Shown here piece by piece: positions 24,796 through 37,790 of a stretch of 64,000 nt of DNA. Within the stretch, counting starts at the first letter, position 1. Each line of letters opens with the position of its first letter. Below the pieces are notes generated by a model, which was not told the DNA's origin, made no database searches, and was given only the letters and a program-made list of their open reading frames with translations. The translations under genes and the position numbers were made by a program. Source of the DNA: Dehalococcoidia bacterium (GTDB lineage Bacteria; Chloroflexota; Dehalococcoidia; DSTF01; JACRBR01); assembly GCA_040902535.1 (NCBI GenBank), contig JBBDXD010000018.1, positions 124,001 to 188,000 of the forward strand, in the 5' to 3' direction.

Positions 24796-25590
24796 CTAAC
24801 CCGGCACCTTCCAGTAGTCGCGCTTGATCGCGACCGGACGGAATCCCATCGCGGCGTACATGTGCTTCGGCGTGTCGGTGGGGTCGGCGACGATCACGAT
24901 GGGCCCGGCGCCCGCTTCGCGGCACTTGCGCACGCAATGGTGGATGAGCGCGCTCGCCAGCCCGCGATGCCGGTGAGCCGGGTCGACGAAGAGGTCCTCG
25001 ACCTGCGCCATGCCATCCACGCCGGGCAGCGTCGAAAAGTAGCCGCGGGGCGCGCCGTCAATCAAACCAAGATAGTAACGCGATGGCGGGCACTTGAGCC
25101 GCCGCGTACGCGCCATGCGCACGCCCGCATCGGCGACTTCTTCCTGCCCCAGGCGCTCGCGCGTCTCCTTCCAGTCGAGCGCGTGCAGGCCCTCGAACTG
25201 GCGCCAGTCGTCCTCATGCTCGACGGCGCGGATCTCAAACGGCGCGGCTTCCCCAATCAGTTCGCCTTCGAGGACTGAGACCAGGTTGCTCCGCATCGTG
25301 AAGTTTTCGAGCGTGAGGCGCGCCTCGAACGCCGGCGGCGTCGTGAAGTCACAGTGGTAGGCGCGCGCAGGAGCGTGCGCGTACTCCAGATCGACGCGCT
25401 CGAGCAGCCGGTCGATCCCGGCAGGCGCGGCGGCGGTCACGTACGCGACGTGGTTCGCATCGCGGATGTCCGGCGTATCGCGATTGCGGATGAAGCGGCC
25501 GCCGTCCGCTTCGAAGCTTTCGTTGCCGAGCGCGAACTGCGCTTCGTTGACGGCGAGCGCCAGGCGCGCGAGATCCTCCGCTGATCGCAT
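24796..25590 (-). CDS. GNAT-family acetyltransferase
   Basis: A 264-residue protein with a C-terminal GNAT fold: VEDLFVDPAHRHRGLASALIHH (about residues 195-216) contains the R/Q-x-x-G-x-A acetyl-CoA loop, followed by MYAAMGFRPV. The N-terminal half looks like a degenerate second GNAT domain. The ATG follows TACCAT by 7 bases (leaderless type). It lies 71 bases past the end of the GH57 operon on the same strand but seems to have its own promoter. Substrate unknown. Confidence 0.85.
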   Translation of the reverse strand: MRSAEDLARLALAVNEAQFALGNESFEADGGRFIRNRDTPDIRDANHVAYVTAAAPAGIDRLLERVDLEYAHAPARAYHCDFTTPPAFEARLTLENFTMRSNLVSVLEGELIGEAAPFEIRAVEHEDDWRQFEGLHALDWKETRERLGQEEVADAGVRMARTRRLKCPPSRYYLGLIDGAPRGYFSTLPGVDGMAQVEDLFVDPAHRHRGLASALIHHCVRKCREAGAGPIVIVADPTDTPKHMYAAMGFRPVAIKRDYWKVPG

Positions 25591-25661: not shown

Positions 25662-27584
25662 TTATGCCAGGGCGGGTTCGTCGATCTCGGCAAGCTCTTG
25701 TTCGCTGAGCAGTTCGCGCAGGATCTGCGGGAAGCGCGGCGGGTAGACCTCGTACAGGTATTCGTACATCTGCTCGATCATCCCCGCCGTGTCGTCGATG
25801 CACATCCATGCGCGCTGGATCTCGTTGATGCCGAGGAACGTTTCGCGCGCGTGCTCTTGCATCAGCGCGAGGATGCGCTGAATGCCCCGATCATCGATCG
25901 CGCAGCTCGTGATGAACTTGCCGTTCTCCGCGCGCACCTGGCGGATGAGCGCCGAAGCCCGAGAGCGGCGCTGCTCCGCGTTGCGCAGATGCTGCTCGGA
26001 CTCGGCGCGCTTCTCGTCGCTCCCGGCACGGTCACCGAGACGCGCGATGCCCCTGCGGAGGTACGCGATACGCGTATCGATGAAGATCTCCAGCACGCGG
26101 TCGAGCCCTTCGAGGGCGCGCTGGGGCAGCGGGCGAAACGAATGCGAGACCCGCTCGGCGACCGCGGGGCGCTTCAACTCCGCCCTGAGGATCTCGGTGA
26201 TGCCGATCGCGTGCATGTACGGCCACTTGTGGCGGTCTTCGTCCGGCTGCCAGCCGAAGTTACACGCCCGCTGCATGATGCGGACGTGCATGGCGAGCTT
26301 CGTGGCGTCGTCGAGGTCGTCGTCAAACTCGTAGCCGCGCGCATCGAGTTCGGCGCCGCTGAGCGGAATCGCAAGGTCGTGGCCGAAGCTCGTGAGCAGC
26401 GACTTGAACGCATCGGCGATGAAGCGCCCGGGCTCCCAGAAGATGAACGGCCAGCGGCGAAACACCTCTAGGTCGTTGTCGACGCCGCGGAACTCGCCCG
26501 CGTGCAGCGGCGGGTAGTGCCCGTCGCTGCGCAGCACGAGCCGGATCTCGGGCGCCCACGACACCTGGTGGAACTTCATGTGGGGCAGCGCGCGGCCGGA
26601 ATCACGCAGCTCATCGAGATAGTCGTCGGGCGTCACGAAGCGAATGTCGGCGTGGTGCTCGGCGCGGACGGCTTCCCACGCATCGCCCATGATGTCGAGC
26701 GCTTCCTCGCCGAAGTCCATGAGTTCGAGATCCTGGATGTAGAGCAGGAGCGCATCATCCGGCGCCGCTTGGACGGCATCGCGGAGGACTTGCGCGTACT
26801 GCTCGACGGCGGCGGGACGATCGATGGGAAACTCGACGAACTTGCGCTCACGGTACTCCTCATCGAGCACCCAGTACTTGCCGAGGATGTAACCTTGTGC
26901 CTTGAGGCGCTCCGGTTGCCACTTTGTGATCGGCCGCCAGATCTCCTGCGAGATCGGAAAGTGGCGTGGCAGCGCGAGGAGGCCGTCGCCGATCGTGAAC
27001 GGCCCGTAGACCGGATCGGCGCCCTCGGGCAAGCCTTCGAACGCAAAACGCGCTTTGCGCTCGCTGAGGTTCGGGAAGATGACGTATTCCATGCCAGCCC
27101 GCGTGAAGCCGGCGAGCTTGTGCGCGTCGATCGACCCTTCCATCGGGAATGCGCCGGCGTGGCGCGGTTCCGGCGCGCCGAGCACGTCGTGCAGGAACTC
27201 GCGGTTCATGCGCAGCTCATCGGTCAACTCGTCATCGGTGAGCATGGCGATGTGCGTGTGGAAAGCGTTGCCGTACACGGGGTAGATGGCGCCGGAACGA
27301 TAGGCCTCGCCGAGGCGGCTGAACGTATCCGGCATGAAGCGCTTGATCTGCATGAGGACTTCGTTCGTCGCTTCGAGGCACACCGTTGCGCCGAGCCGCG
27401 CCCCCATCTCGACGAGACCGCGGTAGATATCGCGGTTGGCCTCCGCGCGCCGGCGCACCCAGTTGTCGTTGCCGACGGCTTCGCGCTTCACATCTTCGTC
27501 GGCCAGCCCGTCGAGCACCTTGCGGGGCAGGTCCCACAGCGGTTCCTGAGCGTGGAACGCCAGGATTACGTTGACTCGCTTCAT
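25662..27584 (-). CDS. GH57-like glycosidase, divergent
   Basis: A 640-residue protein of the GH57/38 (beta/alpha)7-barrel type. It begins VNVILAFHAQEPLWD, where the conserved substrate His sits, and has AFPMEGSID (candidate nucleophile Glu) and LLYIQDLELMDFG (candidate acid). The last ~200 residues are helical. The motifs are weaker than in its two neighbours, so the substrate may differ. ATG 27584 lies right behind GGGTGAGG. It is the last member of the run of alpha-glucan genes. Confidence 0.75.
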   Translation of the reverse strand: MKRVNVILAFHAQEPLWDLPRKVLDGLADEDVKREAVGNDNWVRRRAEANRDIYRGLVEMGARLGATVCLEATNEVLMQIKRFMPDTFSRLGEAYRSGAIYPVYGNAFHTHIAMLTDDELTDELRMNREFLHDVLGAPEPRHAGAFPMEGSIDAHKLAGFTRAGMEYVIFPNLSERKARFAFEGLPEGADPVYGPFTIGDGLLALPRHFPISQEIWRPITKWQPERLKAQGYILGKYWVLDEEYRERKFVEFPIDRPAAVEQYAQVLRDAVQAAPDDALLLYIQDLELMDFGEEALDIMGDAWEAVRAEHHADIRFVTPDDYLDELRDSGRALPHMKFHQVSWAPEIRLVLRSDGHYPPLHAGEFRGVDNDLEVFRRWPFIFWEPGRFIADAFKSLLTSFGHDLAIPLSGAELDARGYEFDDDLDDATKLAMHVRIMQRACNFGWQPDEDRHKWPYMHAIGITEILRAELKRPAVAERVSHSFRPLPQRALEGLDRVLEIFIDTRIAYLRRGIARLGDRAGSDEKRAESEQHLRNAEQRRSRASALIRQVRAENGKFITSCAIDDRGIQRILALMQEHARETFLGINEIQRAWMCIDDTAGMIEQMYEYLYEVYPPRFPQILRELLSEQELAEIDEPALA

Positions 27585-27671: not shown

Positions 27672-28979
27672 TCAGTCCCAGAACAACTGGTCGTGGATCT
27701 TGTGCTGGATGTCTCGCGCGGCGACGACCTTGTAGTACGCGTCGCGCTTCACGTGTTCGGCAGCGCCGCTCAGATTGATGGAGCGGAACGCGTTTACGAT
27801 GACATCGGCCTGCTGATCGAGACCGCGTGCGATCATGTTAACGTCCCAGTGCGGTCTGCGGCTCGCCCACCAGAACTGGCAGGAGTGGAGCGCCGGATCC
27901 ATGAGCCCGCGCGCGATCTCGGCGTGACGCTGGCTGACGGCGCCATCGGCGGACTCCTGCGCAAGCTGCACGAGCGCCAGCGCGACATCGACGTGTTCCC
28001 ACTGCAGCTTATGGATGTAGTTGCCCGGCGCCTGCCACAGCGGGTACGGCACGCCCGCGGCGATGTCTTCGTGGGAAGTGCTCCATGATGCGGGCTTCGG
28101 CTCGATGACGTCGCCGCGCGGGAACTGCTCCATGATCTCGCTGATCGTCGATGACGCGATGCGGTCGACATCTTCAACGGGCGGTGCTTCCGTCATGGTG
28201 AGCAGCGCCCGCGTGCTCTGCGCGAGGGGGCGGGCCTGCACGACAGCCTCGTAAGGGTGGACCGCCTCGTAGGCCTCGGCGAGGAACAACTGGTCCCAGT
28301 TCTCGATGTGGTGGCCGAACGTCTCGGCGTCCATCGCCGTAACGATGTACATATCGCCCTCGTTGCCGTGCGCCTCACGCAAGTGCTCGACGAAGCCCTT
28401 GCCATCGATGTCCTGGAATGAGATGCGGTTGCTCAGCACGTCGTCGCGGAAGATGACCGCCAGATCGACGCCATCGGCGGACTTCGCCTGATAGACGACG
28501 TTTGTGGGCCATGGTGCGGGGCACGCGACGCCGCTCATGATCACCCACTCGTGCCCGAAGTCCGCGATAGGGTCGAGGATGGCGCGGTCGTAGCACATTT
28601 CCGGCGGGAAGAAGCCTTTCGGGTTGTACGCGTCGCCGAAGAAGTGCTTGTTGGTCAGGTGGTTGCGCCGGATCTGGCGCCGCTGTTCCTGGGCGTCGAT
28701 GAGCGGCAGGATCGCGTGGTACTTCGCCGAACCGACGAACTCCACCTGCCCGTTCTCGGCGAGTTCGCGCAGCCCATCGATGACATCGCCGTAGCCGCTC
28801 TCGTAGAGCATTTCCGTGAGGACGCCGTTGATGTTGACGTTGACCTTGGCATGCGGCTGCTGCTTGAACACGTCGATCAACGGCCGGTAGGACTCATCGA
28901 CGACCTTGCGGAGCACCTCCGGGATCTGGATTGGCGGCTGATAGAAGTGGAGCAGCGAGGCCCAATAGATCGTTGACAT
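27672..28979 (-). CDS. GH57 family glycoside hydrolase
   Basis: A 435-residue protein close to the catalytic unit of GH57 amylases and glucanotransferases. LLHFYQPP opens the barrel, GFFPPEMCYD holds the likely nucleophile Glu (about residue 126), and TAMDAETFGHH the acid Asp (about residue 218). It acts on alpha-1,4-glucans in the cytosol, probably in breakdown or chain rearrangement. The start ATG 28979 gives the family N-terminus. A 138-base gap with a CAGGCC-TTAC-GGCCTG hairpin (29033-29048) separates it from the branching enzyme. Confidence 0.87.
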   Translation of the reverse strand: MSTIYWASLLHFYQPPIQIPEVLRKVVDESYRPLIDVFKQQPHAKVNVNINGVLTEMLYESGYGDVIDGLRELAENGQVEFVGSAKYHAILPLIDAQEQRRQIRRNHLTNKHFFGDAYNPKGFFPPEMCYDRAILDPIADFGHEWVIMSGVACPAPWPTNVVYQAKSADGVDLAVIFRDDVLSNRISFQDIDGKGFVEHLREAHGNEGDMYIVTAMDAETFGHHIENWDQLFLAEAYEAVHPYEAVVQARPLAQSTRALLTMTEAPPVEDVDRIASSTISEIMEQFPRGDVIEPKPASWSTSHEDIAAGVPYPLWQAPGNYIHKLQWEHVDVALALVQLAQESADGAVSQRHAEIARGLMDPALHSCQFWWASRRPHWDVNMIARGLDQQADVIVNAFRSINLSGAAEHVKRDAYYKVVAARDIQHKIHDQLFWD

Positions 28980-29117: not shown

Positions 29118-30812
29118 TCATCGCCCGCGGGTGGCGTCGGCGGGGCGGCCCGTCCTGCCCTCGCGCGCTTCGAAATCGCGCGGATCGGCATCCGGGAAGA
29201 GCTTGTCGCGCTCGTAGAGCGCCCTGACGGACGCCATGTCCACCTGCCCCTGCTCGATCTGCATGGCGACGCTGTTGAAGCGCTCGACGTGGCTGGTGAA
29301 GCGCAATTCGGCGTATTGCCGGGCCTGGCCGGTGGTGACGAGAAACGGCCAATCGCTCGACTCAAGCAGCAAGAGTTCCCGCGCAAGCTGTGCGAGCGCC
29401 TCAGCCGGCGCGCCGGGGCGCTGGGCGACGATCTCCTCCATGCGGCGTTGGGCGCCGTTGATGATCGGCCACATCCACGACGTGTCGGCGTTGTACCAGG
29501 TGAAGTGCGTGCCCTGCTGTCCCCACGAACCTTCGGGCAGGGACACGACGTCTTCGGCCGGGTGCTCGCGCACGTACTGCGCGGCGCCCGTCAGGTCGAC
29601 AACCTCGCTCCGCGAAAGATTGCGCAGGACTTCCTTCAGCCAGGCGACACCCTCGAACCACCAGTGACCGAAGAGTTCGGTGTCGTACGCCGCGCTGACG
29701 ATGCCGTACTTGCCACTGGTCGTCGCGTACGACGCGATCTGCTGCTCGACAAGATCGCTGAAGTGCCGCGCGTGGTCCTTCGTGCGCTCGAAAGCGGCGT
29801 GCGGTTCGTAGAAGTCCTTGTCGCCAAGCTCGACGCGGGCGCCCGTCGTGCGCCAGTAGTGGAGCCCCGACTCGCCGTCTTTCTTGTGGAACTCGCGGTA
29901 GACGAAGTCGCCGGGGTAGCCGTGGTCGGCCGACCATACCTGCAATCCGGTCTCGACGTTCCGTCCGATGGCGGCTACGCGCGGATCCGCAACCCAGTAC
30001 GGCTGGAAGGTCGTGCGTTCATTTGGTGCGGGATAGTCAGGCTGTGGCACGGTGTAGCGCTTGGGCACCTGGCCGTAAGGGCCGACGGCGTCGCCGGCCG
30101 CCTTGCCGACGGGCTTGCCGCCCAGGATGGCGTTGGTCTCGACGAAGAAGACGAGCAGGCCCTGGTCGGCGAGGAACGCCTCGAGCCCCGGCTTGTGCTG
30201 CCCGTCCTCGCGCAGGTAGCCCGCCCGATAGGCGCACTCCGGCAGCCAGAAGGACTCCGGCTTGCGTCCGAAGTGCCGTTCGTATGTGCGTACGCCCTGC
30301 CGTATCTGCGCGTAGATCGACGAGTCGCGCTCGAACAGCGGCAGATAGCCGTGCGTCGCGGCGCTCGTGGCGAGTTCGACGTAGCCCTGGTCCTGCAGCC
30401 TGCGAAACGCGCCCAGCAGATCGCGGCCGAAGCGATCGCGGAATTCGTGCAGCAGGCCGGCGAACCGATCGCGATAGAACGTGGCGACGTACGCGCGGTG
30501 CGGCTCGCCCTCGCGCTCGAATCGGCTGATGTCGCTCACGGCTCGCGCGAGTTGGTCTTCGATGTAGTCGTCGAGGTTGCGCAGGATATCGCCGTCGGCG
30601 AGTTGCTCGGCGAGCACCGGCGTAATGCTGATCGTCAGACGATACGGCACGCCTTCGGCGGCGAGATCGTGAAGCGCGGAGAGCAGCGGTATATACGTGT
30701 CGGCGGCGCCTTCGTGGATCCACTCTTCACCGTGAGGCCAGCGACCCGCCATGCGGGCATACGGCAAGTGGGAGTGGAGGACGAATGTGAACGCGCCTTG
30801 CTTCTTGCTCAT
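29118..30812 (-). CDS. GH57 1,4-alpha-glucan branching enzyme
   Basis: A 564-residue GH57 branching enzyme, which moves alpha-1,4 chains to alpha-1,6 positions in glycogen. Signatures are FVLHSHLPYAR (residues ~10-20), FWLPECAYRAGY with the nucleophile Glu, VSAAYDTELFGHWWFEG with the acid Asp, and a helical C-terminal part (GTHFTWYNADTSWMWP). Length matches characterised archaeal and Thermus enzymes. It follows glgC by 36 bases in which GGCTCCG-TGG-CGGAGCC (30818-30834) forms a hairpin, so expression could be tuned between them. Confidence 0.92.
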   Translation of the reverse strand: MSKKQGAFTFVLHSHLPYARMAGRWPHGEEWIHEGAADTYIPLLSALHDLAAEGVPYRLTISITPVLAEQLADGDILRNLDDYIEDQLARAVSDISRFEREGEPHRAYVATFYRDRFAGLLHEFRDRFGRDLLGAFRRLQDQGYVELATSAATHGYLPLFERDSSIYAQIRQGVRTYERHFGRKPESFWLPECAYRAGYLREDGQHKPGLEAFLADQGLLVFFVETNAILGGKPVGKAAGDAVGPYGQVPKRYTVPQPDYPAPNERTTFQPYWVADPRVAAIGRNVETGLQVWSADHGYPGDFVYREFHKKDGESGLHYWRTTGARVELGDKDFYEPHAAFERTKDHARHFSDLVEQQIASYATTSGKYGIVSAAYDTELFGHWWFEGVAWLKEVLRNLSRSEVVDLTGAAQYVREHPAEDVVSLPEGSWGQQGTHFTWYNADTSWMWPIINGAQRRMEEIVAQRPGAPAEALAQLARELLLLESSDWPFLVTTGQARQYAELRFTSHVERFNSVAMQIEQGQVDMASVRALYERDKLFPDADPRDFEAREGRTGRPADATRGR

Positions 30813-30848: not shown

Positions 30849-32138
30849 CTATACGGTGTATGGGAAGTGCTTTTCCGGCGAGCGCATGGTCGTGCCGCTG
30901 GGGATGGTGCCGTCCTGGACACCCTCCGCGACGACGTTAGGGCCGATGACCACGTTGCGCCCGACGCGCACGTAAGGCTCGACACGCGCACGCTTCCCGA
31001 TGATGGTAATACCGCAATTCACGATATCCGGACGCTCGCGGTTGATCGTCCAGTCATCGCCATAGCCAACATAGGCGTTCTTGCCGACGACCGTCTGCTT
31101 GTCGACGATCGAGCGCTCCACGATGGCGCCGGATTCGATCCGGCAGTCGTCGAAGATGATCGAATCGCGCACGACCGCGCCCTCCTCGACGAAGACGCCC
31201 GGCGACAACACCGAATGCTCGACGTGGCCGTTGATGATGCTGCCGAGGTCGAGCAACGACCGCGAGATGTACGCGCGATGGCCGATCTTCGCGGGCGGGT
31301 AGCCCGTCACGCGCGAGCGGATGCGCGTATCGGGGTCGTACATGTTCAGTTCGGGCAGGTCTTCGAGCAGATCCATGTTGCCGTCGTAGTAGGACTCGAT
31401 CGTGCCGACGTCACGCCAGTAGCCTTCGAACTGAAAACCGTAGACGTTCTGGGTCGGATCTTCGACCATCGCCGGGACAATGTCGCGACCGAAGTCGTGC
31501 GTGGTGTCGAGCCGGGCATCGGCGACGAGCTGCTCAATGAGCGCGCGTCGGTTAAAGACGTAAATGCCCATGGAGATCAGGTTCGACTGCGGCTGTTCCG
31601 GCTTCTCGTCGAACTCGACGATGCGGCTGTCTTCGCCGAGTGTGAGCACGCCGAAGCGGTGGGCCTGATCCATCGGGACGCGGTACAGCGGCACCGTGAC
31701 ATCGGCGCCCTTCGCGACGTGGTACGAGATCAGTTCGTCGTAGTTCATCTTGTAGACGTGGTCGCCGGCGAGGATCAGCACGACATCGGCGCGCGACTCT
31801 TCGAGGTAGTAGATGTTTTGGAACACGGCGTCTGCCGTGCCGCGGTACCAATCCGAACTCTCGCGTCCGAGGTACGGCTGGAGCAGCGTCACGCCGCCGC
31901 CGGCGCGGTCCAGGTCCCACGGACGGCCGATGCCGATGTGGTCGTTGAGCGAGCGCGGCCGATACTGCGTCAGTACGCCGACGCGGGTGACGCCTGAGTT
32001 GACGATGTTGCTGAGCGCGAAGTCGATGATCCGGTAGCGTCCGCCGAAGATGACGGCGGGCTTTGCACGCTCTTCGCTGAGGACGCTGAGGCGATCGCCC
32101 TGGCCTCCAGCCAGGATGAGCGCCACGACGCGTTTCAT
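30849..32138 (-). CDS. glgC: Glucose-1-phosphate adenylyltransferase
   Basis: A 429-residue nucleotidyltransferase making ADP-glucose for glycogen (or as donor for TreT). The N-terminal domain has ALILAGGQGDRLSVLSEERAKPAV, RIIDFALSNIVNSG, GTADAVFQN and AGDHVYKMNY; the C-terminal left-handed beta-helix has repeated isoleucine/valine rungs. ATG 32138 is used; GTG two codons before is possible. It follows treT by 14 bases and clearly belongs to the same operon. Confidence 0.94.
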   Translation of the reverse strand: MKRVVALILAGGQGDRLSVLSEERAKPAVIFGGRYRIIDFALSNIVNSGVTRVGVLTQYRPRSLNDHIGIGRPWDLDRAGGGVTLLQPYLGRESSDWYRGTADAVFQNIYYLEESRADVVLILAGDHVYKMNYDELISYHVAKGADVTVPLYRVPMDQAHRFGVLTLGEDSRIVEFDEKPEQPQSNLISMGIYVFNRRALIEQLVADARLDTTHDFGRDIVPAMVEDPTQNVYGFQFEGYWRDVGTIESYYDGNMDLLEDLPELNMYDPDTRIRSRVTGYPPAKIGHRAYISRSLLDLGSIINGHVEHSVLSPGVFVEEGAVVRDSIIFDDCRIESGAIVERSIVDKQTVVGKNAYVGYGDDWTINRERPDIVNCGITIIGKRARVEPYVRVGRNVVIGPNVVAEGVQDGTIPSGTTMRSPEKHFPYTV

Positions 32139-32152
32139 CGACACCCCATGAT

Positions 32153-33448
32153 CTAGTGCCGCACGCGCTGTGCGGAGCGCGGGCGCTGAGCCTGCGTGGA
32201 CAGTCCGGCCAGGTCGCGAAAGATGTTGAGGTAGTCCCGCAGGTAGCGCGTAGTCAGGAACTTGTCCCGTACGTACTCGACTCCTTCCGCGCCCATCTGG
32301 TCCGCCGCTTCGCGGTTGTGGAGGAGCGAGAGAAGCCTCTCCGAACATTCCTCGGCTGTGTTGACCAGGTATCCCGTCTTCCCGCTCACGATCTGCAGTG
32401 GAATGCCACCCACGTTCCCCGCGACTACTGGACGTCCCTTCCATAGCGCCTCCGAGACTACGAGCCCGAATCCTTCGCGGACCGACTTCTGGATGACCAC
32501 GCGCGCCGCGCGCTGGAACGCGTTGACCTCGATACTGCCGACGCCGTTGAGGTTCGAAAGGATGTGGATGTCGAAGTCCTCGCCGGCGCGGCGCACCGTG
32601 CGCTCGTACCAGTCCCAGCCTTCCGGGTCGTCGCTGGCCATCGACGCGATCATGACGAGCTGGAGTTCGGGGAACTCGATCTTGGCGTTGCGATAGACAT
32701 CGATCACGCCGAGCGGGTCCTTCCAGGGATCGAAGCGCGAGATCTGCGTGACCATCGGCCGGTCGGGGTCGACGCCGTAGCGCTGGAGGATGCCATTGAC
32801 CGTGTCGATCGGGAGGTCGACGTTCTTCGGACTGAGCGGATCGATGGCGGGCGGCACAGAGTAAATGTGCGGGCCGGTGAGGTCGTCCTTGACGTAGTCG
32901 GGAAGCGTGAAGATCGCTGCGTCGTACCGCTCAATGTGCGGGCGCAGAAAGTCCCAGACCTGCACCTGAGCTTCGGTGAGGTCGATATGGCAGCGCCACA
33001 CCCATTTGCCCCGATGTGAGCCCGTCGCCTCATCGAGGAACGAGAGCATGGCGGCCGGCTGCGGGTCATGAATGACCACGAAGTCGTAGGAGTCATCGAA
33101 CAGGTCGGCGTTGAGCTTGTTGTAGTTGAGCCAGATCTCGCGGGCGCCGGGGGTCCAGTCGTAGTACATCCCCTGCAGACTGTTGTGCATCGCCTTGGTG
33201 ATGTTGAAGAACTCTTCGGCGCCCTTGATCACCTGCCAGTCGGCGTGGAGACCCACGTCGTTGAACAGCGGCACCATCGTTGCGAGGATCTCGGCGACGC
33301 CGCCGCCGAACGCGGTCGCGTTGACGTGCAGGACGCGCGCGTCCTTCAGGGAGTCGGCAAGGGCGAGAATCTCCTCGGTCCGTTCGTCGCCGATGATCTG
33401 CCGGTAGTCCTCGAGGGATTTCGGCGTCGTGGGGACGGAACCGAGCAC
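32153..33448 (-). CDS. treT: Trehalose synthase TreT (GT4)
   Basis: A 431-residue GT-B enzyme that couples NDP-glucose to glucose, giving trehalose. Typical segments are NATAFGGGVAEIL (about residues 43-55), VIHDPQPAAML, VSRFDPWKD-like ISRFDPWKDPLG with the phosphate-binding Arg and Lys, and EGFGLVVSE, the E-x7-E motif. All catalytic features are intact. The GTG overlaps the previous stop by one base (TAGTG) and has AGGAG upstream, so translation is coupled to the paralog. ADP-glucose from glgC next door is a likely donor. Confidence 0.92.
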   Translation of the reverse strand: MLGSVPTTPKSLEDYRQIIGDERTEEILALADSLKDARVLHVNATAFGGGVAEILATMVPLFNDVGLHADWQVIKGAEEFFNITKAMHNSLQGMYYDWTPGAREIWLNYNKLNADLFDDSYDFVVIHDPQPAAMLSFLDEATGSHRGKWVWRCHIDLTEAQVQVWDFLRPHIERYDAAIFTLPDYVKDDLTGPHIYSVPPAIDPLSPKNVDLPIDTVNGILQRYGVDPDRPMVTQISRFDPWKDPLGVIDVYRNAKIEFPELQLVMIASMASDDPEGWDWYERTVRRAGEDFDIHILSNLNGVGSIEVNAFQRAARVVIQKSVREGFGLVVSEALWKGRPVVAGNVGGIPLQIVSGKTGYLVNTAEECSERLLSLLHNREAADQMGAEGVEYVRDKFLTTRYLRDYLNIFRDLAGLSTQAQRPRSAQRVRH

Positions 33449-34689
33449 TAGCTTCTCCTGTGGAGCGCGTTCAATACCTGAAGGTAGTCACGTAGATATC
33501 GGGTGATCAGAAATCGCCGTGCAACGTGGCGGCGGCCGTTTTCCCCATATCGCGCGGCCAACTCCCGATTTTTCAGCAACAGTTCGATGCCTGCGGCGAA
33601 TTCCTCGTTCGTGTGCGCGACGATCCCCGTCTGGCCGTCGATCACCTGCTCCTGCAGGCCGCCCACCGGCGCCACGACGCAGGGGCGCTCCTTCCAGAGC
33701 GCGTCGGACACCCACATGCCGAAGCCCTTGCGGAGTCCCTTCTGGATGATCACGTCGGCGGCGCGCTGGAAGACGTTGACCTCTACGTTGCCCACCTCGT
33801 TGCCCATGTTGAGCACGAAGATCTGGTGGTCCTCGCCGCAACGGCGTGCGAGGTCGTCGTAGCACTGGCGTCCCTGCGGATCCTGCGGCTCGGTCGTGAG
33901 AATCACGGCGAGTTGGAGGCCCGGGAACTTCTCGTAGAGCGTGCTGCACGCATCGGCGGCGCCCATGAGGTCACTGGCAGCATCGCACGGCGACACCTGC
34001 ACGACCAGCGGCTGCTCGGGGTCGATACCGTAACGCTCCAGCACGGTGCGGACGACATCATCCGGGAGAGGCATGTTGCGCGGGCTATTCGGATCGATCG
34101 CGGGCGGCACGATGTACGTCTTGATGTTGCCGTTGTCTTCCCGCTTGAAGCGCTCCGTTTCGAAAATAGCCGCATCGAACTGGCCGATGTGTTGGCGCAG
34201 CTGCATCCAGACATCGTCCTGGGCGGACGACAGATCGAGATGCGAGTGGTACAGCCACTTCGCGCCGCCGTCGGCAACGTAGGACCGAATCGCGGCCGGC
34301 TGCGGATCGTGCATGATGACGACGTCGAACGGTTCGGTCAGGAGGCCGGCGTTCATCGCGGCATAACTGAGCCACGTATCCGTCATTTCCTGCGTCCACG
34401 ACACGTACACTCCGCCAAGCGCCTGATACATGGCGCGCGTCACGTGCGAGAACTCCTCGGAGGTGCGGACGACCTGCCACGAACAGTCGAGGCCCAGATC
34501 GGTCATCAGCGGGACGGACGAATTGAGCAATTCTGCGGTGCCCGTGCCGAAGCCCGTGACACTCAGATTGAGGACGCGTAAGCCTTCGATGGGTCGGGCG
34601 AGCGAACGTAGCTCATCGATGGCATCACGACCCGCCGAGTCGGCAAGGTCGTCCAACGCACGATGCGACAGCGCCAGAGTGCCGTACAT
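33448..34689 (-). CDS. TreT paralog, probable pseudo-glycosyltransferase
   Basis: A 413-residue protein clearly homologous to the following treT over its whole length (FGTGTAELL, VIMHDPQPAAIR, SHLDLS, YIVPPAIDPNSPRN). The donor-binding motifs are lost: ISRFDPWKD is replaced by VSPCDAASD, removing both Arg and Lys, and EGFGLVVSE by KGFGMWVSD, removing both Glu. It is thus unlikely to transfer sugar and may be a regulatory or structural partner of TreT. It is first in the operon, 46 bases past the mapped riboswitch, with GGAGG seven bases before the ATG. Confidence 0.88.
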   Translation of the reverse strand: MYGTLALSHRALDDLADSAGRDAIDELRSLARPIEGLRVLNLSVTGFGTGTAELLNSSVPLMTDLGLDCSWQVVRTSEEFSHVTRAMYQALGGVYVSWTQEMTDTWLSYAAMNAGLLTEPFDVVIMHDPQPAAIRSYVADGGAKWLYHSHLDLSSAQDDVWMQLRQHIGQFDAAIFETERFKREDNGNIKTYIVPPAIDPNSPRNMPLPDDVVRTVLERYGIDPEQPLVVQVSPCDAASDLMGAADACSTLYEKFPGLQLAVILTTEPQDPQGRQCYDDLARRCGEDHQIFVLNMGNEVGNVEVNVFQRAADVIIQKGLRKGFGMWVSDALWKERPCVVAPVGGLQEQVIDGQTGIVAHTNEEFAAGIELLLKNRELAARYGENGRRHVARRFLITRYLRDYLQVLNALHRRS

Positions 34690-34754
34690 ACGGTTTCCTC
34701 CATGGCATGCACAGGGTTGAAAGGGACGCCCGTTTAGGGTTGCCCGGGCACCTG

Positions 34755-34965
34755 CGCCTGCATCTCTGGTTCCTACGGGGTTAGCTGACGGATTCGGGCT
34801 CGAGACGTGCCCTACTCGCCGCCATCGGCGAGATTCACCCCACCCGCTACGAAGCTAACAGACCCGCGATTGCGAAAGCATTGCGACATCGCGGATGGAA
34901 GCATCGTGGCGGTATCTGGTTCCCCCGTTCCGCGCTCGCGACGGGGGCGCGGATTCGGCCAGGCT
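34755..34965 (-). ncRNA. c-di-AMP riboswitch (ydaO-yuaA type)
   Basis: Read on the minus strand, the leader has the conserved blocks of the ydaO class in order: GGGGGAACC near 34918-34927, GGGGTGAATC, a CTCGCC...GGCGAG stem, TAGGGC, and CCGAATCCGTCAGCTAACC followed by CCGTAGG (about 34773-34797). These are the family's ligand-binding junctions. It lies directly upstream of the TreT-paralog/treT/glgC/GH57 operon. In the known class c-di-AMP binding switches genes off, often for osmolyte, potassium and wall functions. The exact ends of the element are estimated; no clear terminator was identified behind it. Confidence 0.9.
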
Positions 34966-35288
34966 CGTTATGAAACATCCTAATCTTGCAGGTGAGACGC
35001 TGTCAATTTCCATAATGCGCGGACATCACGCAGCAACGGAGTTGCAAACCGCGACCGAAGCTACAGCGCGACGTAACGCCGCATCAAGCATCGAAAAAAT
35101 GAATAGCAGCTACGATGACGTATCATCGCTCACGGCTGCACGCTCGTCGGTCGGCAGAGGATTCGTATGTTGTCATCCGTCGCCCCCTCGCGTCACACAC
35201 TGCTTACAGCTGACGGCGGGGGTGGGGGTTAGGACACTGTGGGGTCAGATCCACGACGGAACGACGTGTCAACGGAGTACTGATAGAC
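34966..35288. other. Non-coding stretch upstream of the riboswitch
   Basis: Base composition is lower in GC than the coding DNA on both sides. Open frames here lack codon bias and start signals. It presumably holds the promoter for the riboswitch operon on the minus strand, but I cannot pick a convincing -35/-10 pair. Confidence 0.4.
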
Positions 35289-36191
35289 TCACTTAGTGGA
35301 TCCGACGAATGAAACCAGCGAGCCCAGATCCGCTTCCCAAAATAAATAGATGCCGTTCGTCTGCGCACTGGCGAGGTTCTCAAGGCTGAAAGCACCGGCC
35401 AGTACGGCTCCAGTGACGGCTTGATTGCCAAACTCATTTCTCCACACTGTCTCCTTGCGTCCAACTTCGGCATTCAATCGCTTGTAGCTATTGACCTCAG
35501 AATTCGACACCTTGCATTCCAGCAAGAGAAGGCGACCATCCCAGAGGCCCACCGATAGGTCTGCGCGCGTGCTTGAGACCATTGACTGACGACAGTACGT
35601 ACCCGTCTCTAGATCCCGAATGGACCGGATGGCTCGGGCGGACTCCTTCTTGAATCCGATGCTGCTGAGAACGGCATCGACAGCGGCCTCCTGGCGCTTG
35701 GATGACTCGCCCCTTCTCTCTGTTGATGCCTTCTGCGCTGCGAGCAGGCCCGCAGTCCAAGCGACGGCCAGTCGCCGTTCCTCCGCTAAGGGCGCACGGG
35801 GTGGTGTCTCGAATAGCCATGGAAACCTCAGCGGATCTCGCGCGCTAACAATGACATCAACCAGATCTTGTAATCGGTCCGGCTCCCATAATCTTTTCAT
35901 TCGTGCGAGAATCTTTAGATCGTCGCTACTCAGTGGTGGTCCGGCGACGTAACGCGCGGCCTCGCGAATCGACTTCTCGCCACGAAGCAGCGTGTCCTTC
36001 GAGAGGTTCCGGAGATCGTTCGAGATCGAAAGCAGCCGCTCGACTGACTCAACTGCCGTCGCGTAGTGATTACGATGGGAAGTGTTGCCCTTTTCCTGAA
36101 ACCACGAAATGAAGGCGTCTATAGAGCGATCGGGTATAAGGGTGAGTTGGTCGCGCGTCCACGTTTGAGGCAGGGCGCGCCGATCAGCCAT
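35289..36191 (-). CDS. XamI-like type II restriction endonuclease
   Basis: A 300-residue protein matching the XamI family, whose prototype cuts GTCGAC. The nuclease core near the C-terminus has ADLSVGLWDGRLLLLECKVSNSEVNSYKRLN, here cited in parts: the Asp of ADL and the E-C-K pair are the likely PD-(D/E)xK residues. Then GAFSLENLASAQ and LFWEADL follow the family pattern. It is intact in length. Its ATG overlaps the stop of the methyltransferase frame by 8 bases, the usual R-M arrangement. The methyltransferase is frameshifted, which makes an active nuclease surprising. Confidence 0.85.
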   Translation of the reverse strand: MADRRALPQTWTRDQLTLIPDRSIDAFISWFQEKGNTSHRNHYATAVESVERLLSISNDLRNLSKDTLLRGEKSIREAARYVAGPPLSSDDLKILARMKRLWEPDRLQDLVDVIVSARDPLRFPWLFETPPRAPLAEERRLAVAWTAGLLAAQKASTERRGESSKRQEAAVDAVLSSIGFKKESARAIRSIRDLETGTYCRQSMVSSTRADLSVGLWDGRLLLLECKVSNSEVNSYKRLNAEVGRKETVWRNEFGNQAVTGAVLAGAFSLENLASAQTNGIYLFWEADLGSLVSFVGSTK

Positions 36192-37790
36192 CAGTCACCC
36201 ATTTGAACCGAAGCGCCTCCATCTCTCGCGGCTCAAATTTCTCGAGCCCGCCTTGATAGGTTCGACCCATCCCTGTGAACGAGGCGCGTGAGCCGTTTAG
36301 GGATCTGACCAGCAATTGCAGGCGCTCTTGAGGCAAGTCCTCTCCGGGGTAAAGCCCATGGGCGACATTTATGATTCCAAGTCGATCAGGATTCAGCGCG
36401 AAGCGAGGCGGCTGTCTGGCCATATACGACGCCACGATTGGTGGTCGACGAATGGTTCCTAGATTCCACCACGATCGCCGATGTGTGCAAAGATATCGCT
36501 GGCTGATGGGAAGGCCATCAAGAATCTCTTCCTCGCCCATGCGCAAGTACTGGTCGACTTCCGGATGCGATGCACGATCCACGTCGCGGGGAAAGACAAC
36601 CAGCACTTTCCTCTCCTCGCCGTCGCGGATCTCAAAGTTAGACTGAAGAATCTCTCGTCCGTCGGAGACTACTGGCACACACCAGCGTTCGATGCCGAAG
36701 AGCTTGGCTTCCTGCCGGCTAATGACGAAGAAGCCGTTGGCGCCAGTCGCAATGCCGCGGTGCACGCGGGCGATCTCCCCCAGGGATTGGAGGCCCTCCG
36801 CATGGGGTGTACGGTCTAAGAGAGCTGGCGTCCACCGCTCTGCGTGAATGAGCGAGTCCAACGCAATGGTGCGACCTGAGCCGATTTGGGGGCCAGCCAC
36901 CTTTCGCGATCCAAGCGACACGGAAACGCCACCACGATCAGAGGTCACCTCGAAACACACGATAGCACCGGTGGTTTGCGCGTCTTCGAATGGCATGGTG
37001 TGGCGATCGATCAAATGGATGGCCTGAAGTCCGAGTCCATTCGTGAGAAGGTTGCGTACCACTTTGCCGTAGGCCACATCGAGCCATTCAGAGCTCGTGA
37101 TGAAACACCCGAGGTCGCAAGGCTGTGCTTGTAACGCAGTTGCGACGAAGAAATATACGTGCAGCCCGGCGAGACGCGAGGCGATGTGCCCCGTCTTGGC
37201 TGCCGCTTCGCTCAACCACGTTTGTTCTGCTGATCGATCTGATGGTGGCGCACGTATGGCGGGTTCCCAACCCACGCGGTGCGCCCGTCGATTCGAGGAA
37301 TGGTGGTAGTGGTGAAGTCCGAATTGAAAACGCGTGCGCGACGAGCTCCCAACGTTTTAAGGTTCGCTCTCGTGACAAGCGTAGAAAACGGATCGAGATC
37401 AACCGCGATGACGTCAACGTTTGCGTCTCGGCGTACCACGCTACTGGCGAAGCGCCCCGAGCCGCATCCCGCGTCCACGACGCGTTGAGGCTGCGCGATC
37501 CATCACCCAGTCAACCATCGGCTCAACGATCGTCGAAGGCGTGAAAATGGCTCCTAGGGATCGCTTCTCAACGGCAGACCGCATGTCCGAGAGAATCCTT
37601 CCAAGTGGATCATCTCCGCCGCCGATCAAGTGACGGAATTGTTCGATCTGGCTTCGCGGTGTGGGCGGGCAACTGGCTGCCTCTTCGATGACAGCTGACT
37701 CTGCCGCGGATAGGCCCCCCCGAATTCCCCCGCGCCCAAATCCGCTGCAAGACGTGCGAGCACCCACTCCAGAGCTGTCACAGTCGCCAT
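36184..37790 (-). pseudogene. N6-adenine DNA methyltransferase, frameshifted three times
   Basis: The pieces of one ~535-residue methyltransferase lie in alternating frames. From the start: MATVTALEWVLARLAADL, then a switch at a run of seven G (near 37715-37721); LSAAESAVIEEAAS to GAIFTPSTIVEPMVDWVMD; a switch near 37490; VVDAGCGSGRF (motif I) to WVGNPPYVRHH (motif IV); a switch near 37222; and TWLSEAAAKTGHIASR to the end. The partner is the XamI-like nuclease. A TATAAT box on the minus strand (37818-37823) lies 28 bases before the ATG. Either the gene is dead or the assembly has indels; one G added to the G-run would restore the first join. Confidence 0.8.

Follow-up and report, generated by a model that had tools for sequence, protein, structure and literature searches.

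The question raised by the locus described here is whether c-di-AMP governs the making of a protective sugar in addition to the movement of ions and solutes. The searchable literature presents c-di-AMP chiefly as controlling the transport of K+ and osmolytes, along with wall enzymes, and PMC10117811 names wall enzymes and the transport of K+ and amino acids as functions under c-di-AMP riboswitches. Within the window, i.e., the whole 64-kb stretch of DNA that was analysed, a leader on the minus strand had been predicted to be a ydaO-class riboswitch heading an operon for trehalose and glycogen metabolism. The window belongs to a 3.18-Mb genome (G000; 96% complete) of a Dehalococcoidia-like member of the Chloroflexota, and the closest named relatives of its trehalose synthase, TreT, are found in metagenome-assembled genomes of Dehalococcoidia/Chloroflexota.

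The leader and its aptamer

The leader contains the following features, all of which lie on the minus strand:

34977-35006, minus strand: sigma-70-like promoter TTGACA-18-TAGGAT (consensus scan and alignment with the sister leader)
34757-34970, minus strand: c-di-AMP (ydaO/yuaA) riboswitch aptamer, 214 nt (RF00379 match)
34709-34757, minus strand: larger alternative hairpin GCGCAGG...CCTGTGC, ΔG -18.9 kcal/mol, with 7 nt between its end and the Shine-Dalgarno sequence (folding)
34728-34749, minus strand: hairpin GCCCG-12nt-CGGGC, followed by GTCCCTTTC (sequence and folding)
34697-34701, minus strand: Shine-Dalgarno-like GGAGG, 7 nt ahead of the ATG at 34689-34687 (sequence)

In a covariance-model search (cmscan), the leader matches RF00379 (c-di-AMP/ydaO) over 34970-34757 of the minus strand with 68.1 bits (gathering score, 38; E-value, 1.2e-13), and RF00379 is the sole family above threshold in the whole window. 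The match covers model positions 1-134 completely. All of the ordered blocks named in the original prediction are present; the conserved core consists of GGGGGAACC, GGGGTGAATC, TAGGG, CCGAA and CCGTCAGCTAACC, with a long insertion between GGGGGAACC and GGGGTGAATC. A copy of the aptamer from a sister genus (genome G001) scores 89.3 bits, and a chance match is ruled out by the Rfam E-value together with this sister copy. By sequence, the leader is confirmed as a true c-di-AMP riboswitch of the ydaO class and was correctly named.

The closing helix (P1) is perfect in the sister aptamer, whereas for the window copy the Rfam alignment shows two non-standard pairs there, the result of an AA insertion; a bulged alternative of six pairs is possible by eye. 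The promoter-like site (one found by the consensus scan, 0.3 expected) ends 7 nt ahead of the aptamer. It is conserved in the sister leader (L125), and alignment of the two leaders reveals a common block, AATTGACAG...GATTAG[GC]ATG. From the end of the aptamer to the ATG at 34689, the distance is 67 nt; the leader had correctly been placed ahead of the first gene, with a predicted spacing of 46-66 bases that was slightly short. The window leader shares with the known ydaO/yuaA leaders (RF00379) a full-model match in sequence and structure, the 5' leader position and a promoter ahead. It differs from them in its length (214 nt vs. 134 model positions) and in its position before treT, glgC and GH57 genes; a terminator behind the aptamer is shared by the sister genome, whereas the terminator and P1 of the window are imperfect.

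The operon behind the leader

The genes behind the leader are collinear from the TreT-like gene to the GNAT gene:

33448-34689, minus strand: TreT-like paralog, 413 aa (PF21269, E 4e-32; best PDB match 6zj4, E 1.6e-80)
32153-33448, minus strand: TreT, trehalose glycosyl-transferring synthase, 431 aa (PF21269, E 2.7e-53; PDB 2x6q, E 6e-132)
30849-32141, minus strand: glgC, glucose-1-phosphate adenylyltransferase, 430 aa (NF003670, 484.5 bits, cut-off 470)
29118-30812, minus strand: GH57 1,4-alpha-glucan branching-enzyme-like protein with a BE_C domain, 564 aa (PF03065 and PF09210)
27672-28979, minus strand: GH57 protein, 435 aa (PF03065, E 6.6e-35; PDB 1k1w, 4-alpha-glucanotransferase, E 3e-11)
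25662-27584, minus strand: 640-aa protein, GH57 membership unproven
24796-25590, minus strand: GNAT acetyltransferase (PF00583)

The genes for the TreT-like protein and TreT overlap by 1 nt, and the GNAT gene, whose membership in the operon is uncertain, starts 71 nt behind the gene for the 640-aa protein. Of the six collinear genes originally proposed, the TreT paralog, treT, glgC and two GH57 genes hold, whereas the third GH57 protein lacks a profile match: for the 640-aa protein, neither Pfam nor the PDB gave a match at E < 0.01, and profile similarity to the neighbouring GH57 protein is weak (E 0.078). The structural model of the 640-aa protein (pLDDT 48.5) is too poor to judge the fold; the protein also occurs in the sister operon, with 75% identity.

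Both TreT and its paralog combine an N-terminal TreT_GT1 domain (PF21269) with a C-terminal GT4 domain (PF00534). TreT aligns almost from end to end with its archaeal counterpart (PDB 2x6q, 6zj4) and keeps the same E-x7-E motif of GT4 (EGFGLVVSE); it differs in being paired with an upstream, motif-altered paralog, and it falls below the cut-off of the Thermococcales-specific NCBIfam TreT equivalog (487.6 vs. 775 bits). In the paralog, the motif reads KGFGMWVSD, i.e., E-x7-E is replaced by K-x7-D. A motif comparison showed the first Glu replaced by K or R in each of 11 TreT-like paralogs, and both Glu residues kept in all 13 TreTs. Because this motif is lost, the paralog is probably not a catalytic TreT; it is possibly a partner or regulatory subunit. 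Judging from the enzyme families, GlgC could provide ADP-glucose for TreT.

The operon contains the sole recognisable trehalose-making genes of the genome. Neither OtsA nor OtsB was found in the window genome or in that of the sister genus (the latter has only an unspecific, sub-threshold OtsA match), and neither genome has a TreY above the cut-off. TreZ (malto-oligosyltrehalose trehalohydrolase, 678 bits) is nevertheless present in the window genome, at L217 (G000:C14:110887), although no TreY passes. The gene for glycogen synthase (glgA) lies outside the operon, approx. 75 kb away on the same contig, and glycogen may therefore be a second product. As to the messenger, the genome has one gene for a c-di-AMP synthase (DAC; E 9.6e-42), which attests gene presence only; it falls outside the window, in line with the original statement that no further c-di-AMP gene is visible there.

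A separate observation concerns window positions 35289-37767 on the minus strand, where a gene for an XamI-like type II restriction endonuclease stands beside a methyltransferase ORF. The latter matches no more than the C-terminal half of the profile, and it looks broken because N-terminal-like sequence lies in another frame.

The riboswitch and trehalose genes in Chloroflexota

A first survey, of 60 relatives, gave 95 RF00379 sites in 33 genomes of the class, whose positions were crossed with matches to TreT_GT1 and Glyco_transf_20 (at most 1 kb upstream, same strand). Fifteen of the 95 sites are located directly ahead of trehalose-6-phosphate-synthase-type (otsA) genes, in 12 genomes, and two are located ahead of treT, in the window genome and its sister; in each case approx. 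0.03 would be expected by chance. None of the 95 sites lies near an otsA- or treT-type gene in another orientation. In a second survey, based on a draw of 151 Chloroflexota genomes from which G000 and G049 were left out, seven of 54 further sites, in 21 further genomes, precede otsA. With regard to the products, the fused OtsAB of G003 reaches 939 bits against the model for the bifunctional trehalose-phosphate synthase/phosphatase (cut-off 634), whereas the OtsA match of the unfused type (G008) stays under the equivalog cut-off, and the exact product of this type is therefore less certain.

On the treT side the link is rare. Among 70 scanned TreT loci (the 80 closest from named genomes, with L115-L124 left out), RF00379 was found at one, L045, which is that of the sister genome, and a riboswitch before treT is accordingly rejected as a general feature. 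A search at E <= 1 of 18 genomes of the order found no weaker copy ahead of treT. Since six genomes of family f4 possess treT with no riboswitch there, the link is not universal. The survey of related genomes suggested in the original prediction thus has a mixed outcome: a riboswitch before treT is kept by the sister genus alone, whereas in the other members of the family it precedes otsAB. At the level of the pathway, the original proposal of a tie between c-di-AMP and trehalose gains strong and independent support from relatives in which the same riboswitch class stands before otsA or otsAB. Because the same sensor precedes two unrelated trehalose-making enzymes, these data suggest that c-di-AMP controls protective-sugar production in Chloroflexota, beyond ion or solute transport.

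Origin of the riboswitch-treT arrangement

The two arrangements are complementary. Five genomes of the window's own family, f1 (G003-G007), have otsAB behind a riboswitch together with a treT operon that lacks one, and in G003 and G005 otsAB is convergent with, and right behind, the riboswitch-free treT operon. The window and sister genomes, devoid of OtsA and OtsB, have the riboswitch on treT; a further genome (G002; 84% complete) lacks both otsA and treT. The fused OtsA-OtsB of the relatives (NCBIfam NF011071) yields the same product, trehalose, and is preceded by the same riboswitch class in G003-G007, but it uses an unrelated route via trehalose-6-phosphate and is not encoded in the window genome.

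In a tree of the TreT paralog, TreT and GlgC, the window and sister genomes are sisters (ultrafast bootstrap 93), and the riboswitch-treT arrangement therefore probably arose in one evolutionary event, not two. The window genome has six RF00379 sites, i.e., the window site and five more. Two of these aptamers, L146 (G000:C19:81037) and L148 (G000:C28:70490), are nested in the otsAB-aptamer clade (support 97); one is located ahead of a gene for a PRC-barrel protein and the other, orphaned, has no clear gene. They are probable traces of lost otsAB control. That the otsAB riboswitch itself moved onto treT is not supported, as this genome has otsAB-type aptamers distinct from the one before treT (C19 and C28, in the same well-supported clade). 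The placement of the treT aptamer varies, being nearest to zinc-ribbon aptamers in one tree and to otsAB aptamers (support 34) in another. On balance, we favour the view that the c-di-AMP riboswitches of Chloroflexota constitute a standing regulon for de novo trehalose synthesis and that, after the loss of otsAB in the window lineage, control was restored through the non-homologous TreT operon, with selection acting on the link between messenger and pathway and not on a particular gene.

Mode of control

The sister leader possesses an intrinsic terminator between the aptamer and the start codon (-13.8 kcal/mol; the 8-nt tail contains six T), whereas a terminator scan detected none in the window leader. 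To judge from its sequence, the GCCCG/CGGGC hairpin of the window is a degenerate counterpart of the sister terminator that has lost the T-run, and it would be a poor terminator. Terminator-like hairpins also occur behind many otsA leaders and behind most GT2 and Cys4 leaders. In both leaders, folding allows base pairs between the 3' core of the aptamer, CCCCGUAGG(CC), and the hairpin's left arm (-11.9 and -14.3 kcal/mol); since 10-14% of shuffled sequences pair likewise, this antiterminator pairing is not statistically distinctive.

The same type of pairing, between the aptamer 3' core and the hairpin left arm, is described for a c-di-AMP switch of Dehalobacter (PMC9337991). There, a tandem Na+/c-di-AMP riboswitch precedes the gene for lysine aminomutase, an osmolyte-synthesis gene, and the c-di-AMP riboswitch terminates transcription when bound (PMC9337991). 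As in the window, c-di-AMP sensing is placed on the synthesis of an osmolyte and not on its uptake; however, the Dehalobacter osmolyte is N-acetyl-beta-lysine and a second sensor responds to Na+, whereas the window has one aptamer and trehalose.

It is therefore considered probable that the c-di-AMP riboswitch governs an operon for trehalose synthesis (TreT, with donor supply by GlgC) and alpha-glucan handling, and that c-di-AMP switches it off. In the proposed mechanism, binding of c-di-AMP would stabilise the aptamer, the downstream hairpin would then form and terminate transcription, and the operon would be silent. Under hyperosmotic stress or at low K+, c-di-AMP would fall, the 3' strand of the aptamer would anneal to the left arm of the terminator, and trehalose would be made. 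By analogy with Dehalobacter, an OFF switch acting through termination is likely in the sister. In the window genome, switching is uncertain because the hairpin is degenerate and P1 is bulged; with its terminator weakened, this switch may be leaky, retuned or decaying.

Decay would be the outcome if the riboswitch were intact in the sister genus and eroding in the window genome at both P1 and the terminator, so that the operon is effectively constitutive. The AA insertion in the 3' strand of P1, the lower score (68 vs. 89 bits) and the missing T-run all fit this reading, and the otsAB-type aptamers without otsAB show that riboswitch remnants do persist in this genome. However, the promoter, the whole core and the stems are kept, the stems show paired changes relative to the sister, and with the AA bulged out P1 can still be built from CUGG+CC and GG+CCAG; we regard decay as a minority reading, rather unlikely. 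Control in the window genome might instead be translational or of the ON type, with the terminator replaced by the hairpin at 34757-34709 or by pairing between the aptamer 3' strand and the region of the start codon. In minimum-energy folds, CGUAGG is indeed paired to CCGUAUG at the start codon, and the -18.9 kcal/mol hairpin forms just ahead of the Shine-Dalgarno sequence. Yet this hairpin is no more stable than shuffled sequences (z 0.8), and the fold energy of the leader as a whole is ordinary for its base composition (z 0.5 to 0.8). The terminator of the sister leader is of the standard kind, and a c-di-AMP switch already described ahead of an osmolyte gene is of the OFF type, by termination (PMC9337991), which leaves translational or ON-type control improbable.

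The output of the operon could also be read differently, with glycogen turnover as the chief regulated process and trehalose as incidental, given that glgC, the branching-enzyme-like GH57 gene and a second GH57 gene are in the operon and that the genome encodes a glycogen synthase. This appears doubtful: what the riboswitch targets of the different genomes have in common is trehalose synthesis, by otsA/otsAB or treT, and glgA itself is remote from the operon.

Other probable targets of the riboswitch

The survey met several further genes behind RF00379 aptamers. In most of the order, these aptamers precede a conserved zinc-ribbon protein of approx. 70 aa (consensus LPRxCPRCRGSMIxERDWYGxYSTCLxCGYVHEAV...RQRRRQPSHGKLRL), whose gene is likely controlled by c-di-AMP; the leaders are L149 (G000:C3:58972), L155, L159, L169, L173, L176, L180, L188, L189, L191, L194, L199 and L200. 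A second family of small four-cysteine proteins (approx. 100 aa, no Pfam match) is encoded behind strong aptamers, most with textbook terminators (L145 (G000:C5:10522), L150, L161, L167, L170 and L203). The second commonest target is a membrane GT2 glycosyltransferase of approx. 619 aa (PF13632), with no PDB relative by sequence, which is encoded shortly behind L147 (G000:C18:90942) and 12 relatives. In family f4, three leaders (L190, L192 and L197) precede a gene for a protein of approx. 150 aa that resembles a response-regulator receiver by eye and has no Pfam match.

Concluding remarks

The RNA class itself was already known. No account of the trehalose regulon came to light in the searchable literature, where work dealing with c-di-AMP riboswitches and trehalose, or with c-di-AMP and otsA, reports no such link; an earlier mention of otsA in surveys of the class is possible. 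To our knowledge, the second-messenger biology of Chloroflexota has been little studied. Further probable targets of c-di-AMP emerge from the survey, namely a membrane glycosyltransferase and zinc-binding proteins of small size. A direct prediction is that trehalose rises when c-di-AMP falls. The repeated link between riboswitch and trehalose, kept through the replacement of the enzyme, would extend the reach of c-di-AMP to osmolyte production in Chloroflexota.
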